This document shows positions 34,515-41,176 of a stretch of 64,000 bases of DNA, piece by piece. Position 1 is the stretch's first letter; each line of letters begins with the position of its first letter. The notes beneath the pieces were generated by a model that did not search any database, was not told the DNA's origin, and saw nothing but the letters and a program-made list of their open reading frames with translations. The DNA comes from Arthrobacter crystallopoietes (GTDB lineage: Bacteria; Actinomycetota; Actinomycetes; Actinomycetales; Micrococcaceae): the NCBI RefSeq assembly GCF_002849715.1, contig NZ_CP018863.1, positions 558,001 to 622,000 of the forward strand. Reading direction: 5' to 3'. The position numbers and the translations under genes were made by a program.

Positions 34515-35174
34515 TCAATCGCGCGTGACTACCGAGGCGACCGGGACAGCGGCGTCATTCTTGATCTCGACCCTGACGATGTCTTCGGTTCCGACGTCGG
34601 TAGCTGCCGTGAGCCGTGCCCGGCCCGCGGGCGTTGCCTTCCACGTGGCCACCTGGCGGGCCTTGCCCGTGGAATCGGTGACCCAGAGGGAGAGTACACC
34701 GCTGTCAGGCAACTGTTCGCCGTCCACAGCCAGCTCTGTGCCCCACCGCTTGTACACCAAGTCCAGATCCACTTGGAGACCGCGGGAGGAAGCCATCGTA
34801 TAGCTGTCCATTTCCTGCTCCGGCGCCGTGACCACCGGCCCCACGACCGCACCGATGACCAGCGATGCCGCGGCGACGGCGGCAACCAAGCCAGCCACCC
34901 GGCGTCGTGCTTTGCGGCGGCGCACCACCAATTCGTTCAGCAGCCGCTTGGTATTCTGCTCGATTTCTTCGACGGGCGGTTCCGCCAGCTCCAGCGCCTC
35001 GTCCCGCGGCACAGCGTCCAGCATGCCCGGGAGGCTCTCCAGCTCGGCGGCTTCCTGCCGGCAGACCGGACAATCATTGAGGTGCGCTTCGAAGGCCCGG
35101 GCCTCATCCCGCCGGAGACCGCCGAGGATGTAAAGGCCGAGCAGTTCCCGCAGCTGCTCATGGTCGCCTTTCAT
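34515..35174 (-). CDS. Zinc-binding anti-sigma factor
   Basis: A membrane-bound 219-residue regulator. The N-terminus holds the ZAS motif H-x3-C-x2-C (HLNDCPVC, about 31-38). One membrane helix lies at about 92-113, and an extracytoplasmic RskA-like C-terminal domain contains SLWVTDSTGKARQVATWKA. The family sequesters an ECF sigma factor at the membrane until a signal triggers release. Its ATG overlaps the sigma gene's TGA by 4 bases, so the two are made together. Confidence 0.92.
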   Translation of the reverse strand: MKGDHEQLRELLGLYILGGLRRDEARAFEAHLNDCPVCRQEAAELESLPGMLDAVPRDEALELAEPPVEEIEQNTKRLLNELVVRRRKARRRVAGLVAAVAAASLVIGAVVGPVVTAPEQEMDSYTMASSRGLQVDLDLVYKRWGTELAVDGEQLPDSGVLSLWVTDSTGKARQVATWKATPAGRARLTAATDVGTEDIVRVEIKNDAAVPVASVVTRD

Positions 35175-35662
35175 CGCTTGACTCCCATCTCATCGAGTAC
35201 AGACCGTAGCGCTTTCACACCGTAAAAGGCGCGCGATTTAACCGTCCCCAGCGGCAGGTGCAGTTCCTCGGCTGCTTCAGCGGCGGTCAACCGCTGGTAA
35301 TGCAGCGCCAGAATGACGTTCCTGTGGTCCACGCTGAGCCGTGTCAGGGCTTCCTCCATAATCACTTTGAGCAACAGCCGGTCCACTTGATCGGCCGTTG
35401 CCAGCTCTTCTTCCGGCATGTTCGTTACCTGCGCCCTGCTGCTGCGGCGCCGGTAGTTGTCGATAATGACGTGCCGCGCGGTCCGGTACAGGTACCCGCG
35501 CATGTTCTCAACCTCCGGGCCCAGTTTCCAGACACGCAGGATCGTCTCCTGCACCACGTCATCGGCCTGGTCCGGGTCTGAAGTGGCGGCCAGCACGAAT
35601 CGTCTCAGTGCCGCCGCATGGTCGCGGTACAACTGCGCGACCGCTTCTTCTTCCATCGACAT
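35171..35662 (-). CDS. ECF-family RNA polymerase sigma factor
   Basis: A 163-residue alternative sigma factor with region 2 (YRDHAAALRRFVLAA through QADDVVQETILRVW, about 13-60) and region 4 (ILALHYQRLTAAEAAEELHLPLGTVKSRAFYGVKALR, about 115-150) with its helix-turn-helix. The ATG has AGGAGG at 7-base spacing. A TGAACC-N16-CGTCTT promoter lies about 50 bases upstream and matches one driving the divergent lipoprotein, which suggests autoregulation. The anti-sigma gene is coupled downstream. Confidence 0.94.
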   Translation of the reverse strand: MSMEEEAVAQLYRDHAAALRRFVLAATSDPDQADDVVQETILRVWKLGPEVENMRGYLYRTARHVIIDNYRRRSSRAQVTNMPEEELATADQVDRLLLKVIMEEALTRLSVDHRNVILALHYQRLTAAEAAEELHLPLGTVKSRAFYGVKALRSVLDEMGVKR

Positions 35663-35714
35663 CGATGTTCCTCCTGACCGCACAGCCCGGGTTCCGGAGC
35701 CATCCGCAATCAGG

Positions 35715-35742
35715 AAGACGTGCCCAACAGCGGAAAGGTTCA
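35715..35742 (-). promoter_or_regulatory. ECF-type promoter of the sigma/anti-sigma operon
   Basis: On the minus strand TGAACC (35742-35737), a 16-base spacer, then CGTCTT (35720-35715). The GAAC/CGTC pair is the usual form of ECF promoters, and the same hexamers recur in the divergent promoter. Confidence 0.72.
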
Positions 35743-35773
35743 CCGGCTAGGAAGAAGAACATCCCCCAGGCGT

Positions 35774-35802
35774 TGAACCATTTTCGCCCGGCAGTACGTC
35801 TT
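35774..35802 (+). promoter_or_regulatory. ECF-type promoter of the lipoprotein gene
   Basis: TGAACC (35774-35779), a 17-base spacer, then CGTCTT (35797-35802). Both hexamers are identical to those of the sigma operon promoter. Confidence 0.72.
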
Positions 35803-35870
35803 TGCCAATAGCGGCCCGCAACCGGCGGGCCGGGACCGAGCGCAGCCCGGTTGATCGTTAGGAATTCCTC

Positions 35871-36416
35871 ATGAAAATCAAACTCAGTGGTGCTGCTGCC
35901 CTTATGACCGCAGCCCTTCTCGGCCTCACCGGATGCGGAGGCGGCGACGAATCAGGCACGGAAGCCCCGCCGCCGGCCGAAGAAACAACCGCCATGCCCG
36001 AGACCACCGAATCGGCACCGGGCGGGGCAAGTGCCCCGGCCTCCGGTGAAGCCGGGGCGATGGCTGGTTCCCAGCTCATGACTGCCGAAACCGATCTCGG
36101 CGAGATTGTGGTCGATGGCGAGGGAATGACCGTCTACTACTTCACCAAGGACGAAAAAGGCTCTGGTGTCAGCAACTGCACCGGCGACTGCCTGGTCGCG
36201 TGGCCACCTGTCTTGACCGAAGGCGATGCCCCGGAAGTTGAAGGCATCACCGCGGAAGTCGGCACCATCGACACCCCTGACGGCAAGAAGCAGGTGACCA
36301 TCGACGGCATGCCGATCTACTACTGGCAGAACGACAAGGCACCGGGAGACGTCGACGGCCAAGGCGTCAACGACGTCTGGTACGTAGTGGCCCCGGACGG
36401 CCAAATGATCCGCTGA
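35871..36416 (+). CDS. Secreted-repeat lipoprotein (COG4315 type)
   Basis: A 181-residue lipoprotein with a signal peptide and lipobox LTGC (acylated Cys about 22), a Pro/Glu/Ala-rich linker to about 65, then two copies of the secreted repeat of unknown function. The first has MTVYYFTKDEKGSG with cysteines in NCTGDCLVAWPP; the second has MPIYYWQNDKAPGD ending in VWYVVAPDG. A ribosome site AGGA precedes the ATG. Its promoter matches that of the adjacent ECF sigma factor, making it a likely regulon member at the outer face of the membrane. Confidence 0.93.
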   Translation: MKIKLSGAAALMTAALLGLTGCGGGDESGTEAPPPAEETTAMPETTESAPGGASAPASGEAGAMAGSQLMTAETDLGEIVVDGEGMTVYYFTKDEKGSGVSNCTGDCLVAWPPVLTEGDAPEVEGITAEVGTIDTPDGKKQVTIDGMPIYYWQNDKAPGDVDGQGVNDVWYVVAPDGQMIR

Positions 36417-36655
36417 AAGACTGGCGGAGGGTCCGCCGCGCGGGTGGACGAGGCCAACAGGCCTGGAGTATCGATCCGCGCGGGGCTCTCCGCCTGTCTG
36501 GCGTCCCCGGGCATCACTGTTACTGCGCCATGACTGCCAGTGAACGTGCTGCCAGGTGGTTCATTACGGCCGGGCCCCATCTCCACAGGGGCCGTTCCAC
36601 ACCTGCCGTGTCCACATTGCCTCGGCGCCGCCTTCGGATCAGTCCTGTCTGCACC

Positions 36656-36661
36656 TACTGT
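36656..36661 (+). promoter_or_regulatory. -10 box for the UPF0758-domain gene
   Basis: TACTGT, 7 bases before the ATG, no Shine-Dalgarno. The rest of the 36417-36655 gap shows nothing clear. Confidence 0.45.
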
Positions 36662-36668
36662 TGGCCGC

Positions 36669-37043
36669 ATGAAGACAAGTCACAGGAACCATCGCGCGAT
36701 TGCGCAGATGCAGGCGGAAGACCGGCCCAGGGAGCGCATGGCCCGGATGGGAATCCGCAGGTTGAGGGATGCGGAGGTGCTGGCGCTGGTCATCGGCTCC
36801 GGGACGAGGGAAGCCAGCAGCGTGGAACTGGCACAGTCAATCCTGAAAAGGCTCGGCGGTCCGGGCGGGCTGCAACTCGCCGACCCCGGGGAACTTCAGG
36901 AGGTGCCAGGGGTCGGCGCTGCGCTGGCGGCCAGGATCGCCGGCGCCATGGAACTGGCGCGGCGGGCAGCCATCAGGAGTGCGGACGCCAGACCACCAAG
37001 GCCTGGCTCCGCGGCCGCGGACGCTTCCCGCGGGCCAGCGTGA
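36669..37043 (+). CDS. RadC N-terminal (UPF0758) domain-only protein
   Basis: A 124-residue protein matching only the helix-hairpin-helix half of RadC/YicR: RPRERMARMGIRRLRDAEVLALVIGSGT, a variant of the RPRERL...LSDAELLAILLRTGT opening, then LQEVPGVGAALAARIAGAMELARR. The C-terminal JAB/MPN metalloprotease-like domain of RadC is absent, and the DNA beyond is occupied by hspR on the other strand. It may be a natural short form or a remnant. The last 71 bases overlap hspR tail to tail. Confidence 0.75.
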   Translation: MKTSHRNHRAIAQMQAEDRPRERMARMGIRRLRDAEVLALVIGSGTREASSVELAQSILKRLGGPGGLQLADPGELQEVPGVGAALAARIAGAMELARRAAIRSADARPPRPGSAAADASRGPA

Positions 37044-37398
37044 CCACGTCGCCGGCCAGCCCGGCGGCGAACACCCGGCTGGTTTCCGTTCCGCTCTGCC
37101 GGCGCGTGCCTTCGAGCTCGGCAGTCAGTTCCTGCACCCGGGATCGCAGGGCGTTCACCTGGTTCTCCAGTTCCAGGATCCGCTTGATGCCCTCCAGCGA
37201 TACGCCTTCCTGCGATAACCGCTGGACCTCACGCAAAGTGTCCACGTCGCGTTGAGAATAGCGGCGCTGGCGGCCGCGCTGGCGGGAGGGCGAGACGAGT
37301 CCCAGCCGGTCGTACTGGCGCAGGGTCTGCGGATGCATCTCTGCGAGTTCGGCCGCTACGGAGATCACAAAAATAGGGGCGTTGCGGTCAATACCCAT
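36973..37398 (-). CDS. hspR: HspR, MerR-family heat-shock repressor
   Basis: Represses the dnaK operon and clpB by binding HAIR elements, with DnaK as co-repressor. The 141-residue protein has the MerR helix-turn-helix AAELAEMHPQTLRQYDRLGLVSPSR (about 14-38), RYSQRDVDTLREVQRL, and a coiled coil about 70-95. The second ATG was chosen because GGAG lies 6 bases upstream. A hydrophobic IFVISVAAEL stretch precedes the HTH, as in the family. It is the last gene of the operon, 20 bases after dnaJ. Matching HAIR sites occur at three places in this window. Confidence 0.95.
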   Translation of the reverse strand: MGIDRNAPIFVISVAAELAEMHPQTLRQYDRLGLVSPSRQRGRQRRYSQRDVDTLREVQRLSQEGVSLEGIKRILELENQVNALRSRVQELTAELEGTRRQSGTETSRVFAAGLAGDVVTLARGKRPRPRSQALVVWRPHS

Positions 37399-37418
37399 TG
37401 CTTTCTCCATTCTTCCGG

Positions 37419-38396
37419 CTACAGCCTGGCCTTAGCCGCCAGGTTCTCACGCGGGTTTGCACCCGAAGTGGCCGCAGCGAAGGCCTTGACTGCTTCCTGA
37501 GCTTCCTTGTTCAGGTTCTGCGGAACAACGACGTCGATAGTCACCAGCAGATCCCCCGTAGCCTTGGACGTGTTCACGCCCCGGCCTTTCACGCGCAGGG
37601 TCCGTCCGGACGGAGTTCCGGCAGGTACCTTCACCTTAACCGTTTCGCCGTTCAGGGTGGGTACTTCGATCTGCGCGCCGAGCGCCGCCTCGTCGAAGGA
37701 TACGGGGACATGGATCCGGATATTGTCCCCGTCACGGGTAAAGAAACTGTGCGGCTGGACATTCACGGTCACCATCAGATCGCCGTTACCGGCAGGGCCT
37801 GGCTGGCCCTTTCCACGGACGCGGACCTTCTGGCCGTCCTTGATACCCGCAGGAATCCGGACCTCGATGACCTCGCCGGAGGGCTCGCGCAACCCGATGG
37901 TGGTCCCCTTGATGGAACCGGCGAACGAAATACTGGTTGATGCGGTCCGGTCCGCACCCTTGCGCGGGGGTGCCTGCGGAGGCTGGAAGCCGCCGCCGAA
38001 GCCGCCACCAAAGAGGTCGGCGAACTCGGGCGGAATATTGCCGTTACCGAACCCGCCGGATGAACGCCCGCGCGTGCTCTGGCCGAACATACTGCCGAAA
38101 ATGTCCTCGAATCCGCCGCCGCCCGGCGCGCCTGCCCCGCTGGCCGTAAAGCGGGCCCCGCTGCCCATCGCCCGGATGGCGTCGTATTGCTGGCGCTCCT
38201 CCGGATCGGAGAGCACCGAATACGCTTCGGAGACGTCCTTAAACATCTTTTCAGCCGCGGCGTCGGAGGAGTTGGTGTCCGGATGGTACTTCCGGGCAAG
38301 TTTGCGGTAGGCCTTCTTGATGTCGGCGTCCGACGCGTCCTTGGAGACACCAAGGATCTTGTAGAAGTCCTTCTCGACCCAATCCTGGCTAGCCAT
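37419..38396 (-). CDS. dnaJ: DnaJ-type co-chaperone without zinc fingers
   Basis: J-domain protein of 325 residues that stimulates DnaK ATPase. The J domain (10-75) contains the invariant HPD in KYHPDTN. A Gly/Phe-rich linker runs about 85-150, and two C-terminal beta domains follow. The four CxxCxGxG zinc repeats of classical DnaJ are absent, as in CbpA/DnaJ2-type proteins. This is the form usually found in actinobacterial HspR operons. A 94-base gap with a hairpin separates it from grpE. Confidence 0.95.
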
Positions 38397-38450
38397 TCAG
38401 GCGCCTCCCTTCACGTAGTTCAAAGTCTATGGTGGCCAAGAGCCCATGAG

Positions 38451-38480
38451 AGCCGGGGACGCCTTACGACGTCCCCGGCT
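38451..38480 (-). other. Intergenic hairpin between grpE and dnaJ
   Basis: A perfect 11-bp inverted repeat (38451-38461 and 38470-38480) inside an otherwise tight operon, not followed by T-residues. It could be an attenuator or an RNA-processing and stability element that sets different levels for dnaK-grpE and dnaJ-hspR. Confidence 0.5.
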
Positions 38481-38490
38481 TCATACGGTG

Positions 38491-39162
38491 CTACTCGGCC
38501 GGTACAGCCACAATCACCTGGGCAGCACGCAGGACGCGCTCCCCGGCCTTGTACCCGGTCCGCAGGATCTGGCTGACTGAATCAACCTGGACATCTGCGC
38601 TTTGCTGCTGCATCAGCGCTTCGTGGACGTTCGGGTCAAACTCCACGTCCGTCTCGGAGATTGGCTCCAGTCCGTAGACCTTCAAGACGTTTTCCAGCTT
38701 CGTCGCGATAGCGGCGAAGGGTCCGTCCTCGAGGTCTCCGTGCTGGCGTGCGGCGTCGATGTCGTCGAGTACCGGAAGCAGCGAGTTGAGGACGCCAACG
38801 ATGGCCATCTGGCCAGCCACCGCGCGGTCCCGCTCCACACGCTTGCGGTAATTCACGTACTCCGCCTGAAGGCGCAGCAGGTCATTCCTCAACTCGGCGG
38901 CCTGTTCCGAATCCACGCCCTGGGCCACCGACTCCCCTGCGGGGACGTCGGTGCTGTTCAGGATCGCCTCGGCCTGGGACAGTGCATCTCCGTCAACACC
39001 CTCGGCTGCGGGTGCCTCCGCGGCGGCAGCCTCATCGGCTGCCTCCGCATCGGCAGGTGCTTCCTGGCCACGGACCTTGCCCGTCTCCGGGTCAATCTTG
39101 CGGTTGTCGCGGAAGCTCACCGGCTCTGACTCGTGCTCGTGCTCGTTACCGTGGTTGGCCAT
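38491..39162 (-). CDS. grpE: GrpE nucleotide exchange factor
   Basis: A 223-residue thermosensing exchange factor that releases ADP from DnaK. The first 75 residues are acidic and Ala-rich. A long coiled coil (about 80-125, with LRLQAEYVNYRKRVERDR) leads to the beta domain with LPVLDDIDAARQHGDLEDGPF, LEPISETDVEFDPNVHEALMQ and a C-terminal GYKAGERVLRAAQVIVA. Its ATG is 2 bases after the dnaK stop. Confidence 0.96.
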   Translation of the reverse strand: MANHGNEHEHESEPVSFRDNRKIDPETGKVRGQEAPADAEAADEAAAAEAPAAEGVDGDALSQAEAILNSTDVPAGESVAQGVDSEQAAELRNDLLRLQAEYVNYRKRVERDRAVAGQMAIVGVLNSLLPVLDDIDAARQHGDLEDGPFAAIATKLENVLKVYGLEPISETDVEFDPNVHEALMQQQSADVQVDSVSQILRTGYKAGERVLRAAQVIVAVPAE

Positions 39163-39164
39163 AG

Positions 39165-41176
<2,012 letters not shown>

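Follow-up and report, generated by a model that had tools for sequence, protein, structure and literature searches.

The type of circuit considered here is an ordinary one for ECF sigma factors. In the SigK-RskA system with MPT70/MPT83, an ECF sigma factor is paired with a membrane anti-sigma factor, with surface or secreted proteins as the main outputs, albeit of protein families other than those described below. A closer precedent is SigL of Mycobacterium tuberculosis, which recognizes TGAACC as its -35 element. The gene for SigL is described as part of a sigma/anti-sigma operon (PMC13002591), and the sigL promoter as itself SigL-dependent; the -10 element is given in the same work as T-G-N-C/A-A-G preceded by C-G, with Asp60 of the sigma factor conferring the G preference at position '-11' (PMC6372665). 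RslA is described as a membrane-associated zinc anti-sigma factor with an HxxxCxxC motif, in which oxidation strips zinc from the exposed Cys-x2-Cys and lowers the affinity for SigL 8-fold, and the genes controlled by SigL as those of cell-wall and polyketide synthesis (PMC2877774).

Genes and promoters of the locus

The locus described here lies in a 64,000-nucleotide stretch of the Arthrobacter crystallopoietes genome (contig NZ_CP018863.1, positions 558,001 to 622,000), hereafter the window. A gene for an ECF sigma factor of 163 aa occupies positions 35171..35662 on the minus strand, and its ATG at 35662 follows by 7 nt a Shine-Dalgarno sequence, AGGAGG (35670..35675, minus strand). The longest sigma ORF opens with a GTG at 35743, at the upstream edge of the gene's own promoter, but the ATG is the likely start; with it, the mRNA leader would be about 45 nt long. 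The protein shows the ECF (group 4) make-up, with region 2 and region 4 only, a short linker and a length within the range of about 160-190 aa: Pfam places Sigma70_r2 at 12-76 and Sigma70_r4 at 106-154 of a 164-residue translation, and the TIGR02937 sigma70-ECF model scores 78.2 bits against a cut-off of 42.9.

Among solved structures, its best match is SigL of M. tuberculosis (E 7e-28), followed by 3hug, the SigL-RslA complex, at 9e-13 and then by the next match at 1e-8; SigK is far weaker at 3e-4. The best NCBIfam model, NF007227/PRK09645, which we take to be the SigL model, gives 151.6 bits, below its cut-off of 202, and a quick tree, rooted at its midpoint, places SigL with sigmas from Microbacterium and relatives and those of the window's family elsewhere. 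In both promoters described below, the -10 element begins with CG-T as in SigL, but its fourth base, corresponding to '-11', is C rather than G, and the sigma loop is shorter, so that Asp60, described as the reader of that G (PMC6372665), falls opposite a gap in the alignment. We therefore label the sigma SigL-like rather than SigL.

The start of the next gene overlaps the sigma stop codon (ATGA) and opens a reading frame for a zinc-type anti-sigma factor of 219 aa (34515..35174, minus strand). This protein matches zf-HC2 at 34.6 bits, carries HLNDCPVC (an HxxxCxxC motif) at residue 31, and has a single hydrophobic segment long enough for a membrane span, at 93-111, with a C-terminal part following. 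Its sequence marks it as a membrane-anchored protein of the zinc type, with HxxxCxxC as in RslA and with putative zinc binding and redox response.

On the other side of the gap, a plus-strand gene (35871..36416) encodes a Lipoprotein_15 protein (COG4315, YxFxxD repeat) of 181 aa. PF03640 covers two stretches of it at E 1.6e-33 (114.4 against 24.4 bits); it has a lipobox, LTGC (Cys22), and two YxFxxD repeats, and a lipid anchor is predicted. A C-x3-C motif (103-107) and the YxFxxD features vary little or not at all among 60 aligned sequences. Its score of 129.6 bits on model NF040526 (311 positions) lies below the cut-off of 275, no second gene of the Lipoprotein_15 family was found in the genome, and the nearest public relatives are from Arthrobacter species. 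The SCO0930-family/COG4315 lipoproteins share the PF03640 domain, and to our knowledge have no known function. All three genes are thus what the initial annotation, made from the window's sequence, had taken them for.

The same annotation had placed between them a pair of ECF-type promoters facing outward, and the sequence bears this out. On the minus strand, reading from 35742 to 35715, the sigma operon has TGAACC as -35 (35737..35742), a 16-base spacer and CGTCTT as -10 (35715..35720); on the plus strand, from 35774 to 35802, the lipoprotein gene has TGAACC (35774..35779), a 17-base spacer and CGTCTT (35797..35802). Both -10 assignments also draw on family comparison. Transcription would be expected to start at about 35705-35710 for the sigma operon and about 35807-35812 for the lipoprotein gene. 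No other exact match to TGAACC-N16/17-CGTCTT occurs in the window (the mean over 100 shuffles was 0.01, and no shuffle reached 2) or, in the whole-genome scan that had been proposed as a check, anywhere in the 5,032,705 bases scanned. The reversed pattern also has 2 matches genome-wide, so a lone match is not rare; the rare feature is two matches 31 bases apart, measured between the -35 boxes, pointing outward in a sigma/lipoprotein gap.

Conservation and natural losses

In a survey of 197 genomes of the family, the sigma was found in 51 at E 1e-30, and the upstream stretch was read in all 51. A strict pattern, TGAAC[CT]-N16/17-CGTC, sought over at most 320 nt before the sigma, was present sigma-ward at 39 loci, lipoprotein-ward at 43 and in both directions at 38, where shuffling predicts 0.07, 0.09 and 0.00, respectively, and the reversed pattern gave 0. 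With the fourth -10 base left free and sigma-ward sites counted only within 140 nt of the sigma, the site was found sigma-ward at 49/51 loci, and lipoprotein-ward at 45/45 loci with a neighbouring lipoprotein and 2/6 where none was found; this looser pattern, reversed, had 0 matches in all 51 stretches. Between loci the boxes are kept while the spacers drift.

Natural losses serve as controls. The two lipoprotein-ward sites at loci where no lipoprotein was found belong to L102, where the contig ends, and to L105, whose site is an orphan; the other four such loci (L106, L183, L185 and L187) have the sigma-ward site alone. L106, which shares its genus code with L105, has neither lipoprotein nor lipoprotein-ward site. 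In a separate comparison of 33 public lipoprotein loci, with the lipoprotein-ward site sought within 330 nt, it was present in 24 of 25 loci with a sigma (the exception, L014, reads TGAACG) and in 0 of 7 without one; L007, whose contig ends before any sigma could appear, has the site. Families were assigned to the public loci by what we take to be the placement of their genus names.

The sigma-ward site is absent from two of the 51 family loci, L193 and L198 (genomes G030 and G142), both of which retain the lipoprotein-ward site. They are also the only loci of the 51 without an HxxxCxxC coding stretch within 320 nt after the sigma, and a tblastn search at E 0.01 found no anti-sigma factor in them. 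Upstream of the sigma in L198, TGAACC-N14-CGTG can be read as a relic. As far as the sequences tell, loss of the brake (the anti-sigma factor) and loss of the positive feedback (the autoregulatory site) coincide in these two loci, and this joint absence bears on why ECF sigmas autoregulate.

Further candidate targets

A looser scan of the genome with TGAACC-N16/17-CGTC returned 37 sites (15 for the reversed control). A crude codon model puts 23 of them within genes, and these look accidental; 2 are the pair itself, whose sigma-ward member falls within the over-long GTG ORF, and 12 lie outside genes. For 9 of the 12 no convincing gene was seen downstream. Another scan, TGAACN17/18CGTCT, gave 16 sites (11 reversed), 8 of them additional. 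Several sites are common to genomes of the genus, with conserved spacers and the look of coding sequence.

The first further candidate is a DUF2231-type membrane gene, 3.4 Mb further along the contig, with TGAACC-N16-CGTCTG 110 nt before it. The protein itself scores below the Pfam DUF2231 model and takes its name from relatives (for example, in L012). TGAAC[CT]-N16/17-CGT was sought within 250 nt of 26 family matches to it, and was found at all ten of the nearest copies (counting the genome's own one), in whose read stretches neither sigma nor lipoprotein occurs, at 6/6 copies that lie beside a sigma, and at 0/9 distant copies; a further copy, in L133, comes second behind a lipoprotein gene that carries the site. 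A DUF2231-like gene sits at the sigma/lipoprotein locus itself in 13 public loci from other genera; in 12 of these it has an outward TGAAC-CGT site of its own, and in L024 it is preceded by a Rieske gene. The protein has four hydrophobic segments and a helical predicted structure (the model was made for P0121), and in 53 aligned sequences His11, His16 and His80 are invariant, which would suit haem binding. Six family loci (L132, L134, L135, L136, L137 and L140) have a sigma about 40% identical to the window's, divergent from a DUF2231 gene, with twin TGAAC-CGT sites, some of them reading CGTA or CGTT. The copy in the window's genome (C1, about 3.998 Mb) lies divergently from a glycosyltransferase gene (L070:305-1537) whose product looks like MshA of mycothiol synthesis; this neighbour is present in 5/26 DUF2231 loci, the genome's own included.

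Two more candidates, picked by inspecting the site list, are a GNAT acetyltransferase and a membrane protein. The unlinked GNAT gene (PF14542) has its site 81 nt upstream, and the site recurs in 6/6 close orthologues and in 0/6 weaker matches read, 18 further matches having been left out. In three orthologues at 57-63% identity, the two boxes are among the few stretches that still align. Close orthologues are missing from three of the nine genus genomes, whose best matches lack the site. The membrane protein gene at C1:2514027 has the site in 2/2 orthologues, both close (94-95% identity), making it a weak candidate for a fifth target. In Isoptericola, a YceI-domain gene (L010:2014-2694) opens the sigma operon, separating the sigma from the twin promoters; ORFs like it were noted by eye in L011 and L013, and a comparable gap in L016.

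The initial annotation had proposed that the sigma autoregulates and drives the lipoprotein as the circuit's output. Conservation, losses and -10 variants lend both inferences strong support, but the lipoprotein is not the only predicted output: the regulon is larger, with DUF2231 and GNAT sharing the conserved predicted promoter. A guess about two sites becomes a conserved predicted regulon of at least four transcription units, and the uncharacterised Lipoprotein_15 and DUF2231 proteins gain a common predicted regulator and hence a likely common function. Among the matches listed in our literature search, no account of a lipoprotein/DUF2231 circuit was found, and an earlier mention in ECF classification work is possible.

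Promoter specificity and the proposed circuit

Natural variation at the fourth -10 base provides material on how the loops of ECF sigmas select the base at '-11'. In 69 of 78 loci a site could be read in each direction, sigma-ward and output-ward, and 68 loci were used; L015, in which lipoprotein and sigma run in one direction with the lipoprotein first, would have had its single site counted twice and was kept only in the tree. The fourth base is the same at both promoters in 55 of the 68 (C/C 41, G/G 12, T/T 1, A/A 1) and differs in 13. In 14 loci where sigma, anti-sigma and lipoprotein genes run in the same direction, the lipoprotein site reads CGTG throughout, the sigma site CGTG in 10 and CGTT in 4, and the 12 readable DUF2231 sites CGTG in 11 cases and CGTA in 1. 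The four Isoptericola/Cellulosimicrobium loci with a readable sigma (L010, L011, L013 and L016) have Arg at the Asp60 position together with CGTC; Arg-bearing paralogues in the family genomes go with A, T, C or G. In the window's family, the loop is 3-4 residues shorter and the promoters are mostly CGTC, with one sub-clade (L178-L181) reading CGTG or CGTA at both.

In the joint reading of these data, one set of clades mostly uses G and the other C, save for the C-group sub-clade in which both promoters have G or A. The fourth base seems to track the sigma loop predicted to read it, over only about four independent changes. On a tree built without the loop columns, it changed 4 times output-ward and 7 times sigma-ward. 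A co-switch test found 2 well-supported independent pairs (4 in total), in which the second promoter was concordant in 1.9/2 on average and never went the opposite way; the median p was 0.5, with far too few pairs for a test. Concerted switching is suggestive, not proven. That the whole small regulon shifts its promoter code together with the sigma loop (Asp/Glu/Gln, Arg or shortened), at the sigma's own, lipoprotein and DUF2231 promoters alike, we would put at even odds; the direction, judged from SigL alone, would be G to C. If true, it would offer a natural series in which a sigma and all its promoters change specificity while the circuit is retained.

The reading that we favour, at a probability of roughly 0.88 for the circuit as a whole, is as follows. 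The back-to-back promoters would be read by the SigL-like ECF sigma encoded beside the gap, which the membrane-anchored zinc-type anti-sigma factor, its gene overlapping that of the sigma, would keep inactive. The sigma would be freed by a signal, probably envelope stress of an oxidative or metal kind, acting on the zinc site or through regulated proteolysis; together with RNA polymerase it would then transcribe the sigma/anti-sigma operon and the genes for the lipoprotein, the DUF2231-type protein and the GNAT acetyltransferase. Comparison shows the sites, their conservation, the additional targets and the matching losses; we infer transcription by the local sigma, release by the anti-sigma factor, the signal and the functions of the outputs; release by oxidation or proteolysis is modelled on zinc loss by RslA and cleavage by Rip1. 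Very probably, as judged from the conserved sites, the sigma switches on its own gene, the lipoprotein gene and at least two others. These predicted targets (Lipoprotein_15, DUF2231 and GNAT) set the circuit apart from SigL and its cell-wall and polyketide genes. Three features lift it above the routine: a conserved predicted regulon that comprises at least four units, a promoter code that differs by clade, and the fact that anti-sigma and feedback are missing together.

Within a gap rich in G+C, two short boxes could conceivably be alike by accident, the reversed 12-base pattern being as frequent genome-wide, but with both sites at 38/51 loci against 0.00 expected, and with boxes persisting while spacers diverge, conservation contradicts this and we give it almost no credence. 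A more serious proposal is that another ECF sigma of the genome uses the sites, or several with cross-talk, and that the local sigma has other targets. A first look found 19 candidate sigma stretches in the genome (18 scored, only the local one reaching E 1e-30), and C-G just before the -10 is a common feature; in M. tuberculosis it is described for at least 8 of 10 ECF holoenzymes (PMC6372665). The lipoprotein-ward site, however, tracks the neighbouring sigma (24/25 with, 0/7 without), and which -10 variant occurs goes largely with the clade to which the local sigma belongs, which leaves this proposal improbable. Conservation in distant species, natural losses and the matching -10 variants together strongly support the view that one ECF sigma controls both its own operon and the divergent lipoprotein gene.

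The initial annotation had called the circuit envelope-sensing. Redox or metal stress at the envelope is a better guess by analogy, the anti-sigma factor being an RslA-like, membrane-anchored HxxxCxxC protein. A circuit devoted to limitation for a metal, iron or zinc, and not to oxidative or envelope damage, is possible but rather unlikely: loss of SigL is described as impairing low-iron growth of M. tuberculosis, and Rip1 as acting through RslA proteolysis (PMC10449499), and the anti-sigma factor has a zinc-type motif, yet the conserved targets include no recognisable gene for iron or zinc uptake, and the link is by analogy only. As for the outputs, our best guess is a tentative one, that they perhaps act in redox at the membrane surface; the idea comes from the Rieske (L024) and YceI (L010) genes that join the module and from the three invariant His of the DUF2231 relatives.

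The window contains further genes after the lipoprotein region. At 36540-37043, a short gene matches the RadC/UPF0758 family in the N-terminal domain only, and at 36973-41171 on the minus strand there are genes for a MerR-type regulator and for DnaJ-, GrpE- and DnaK-like proteins, named by eye from their ORFs, with a profile scan for MerR only.
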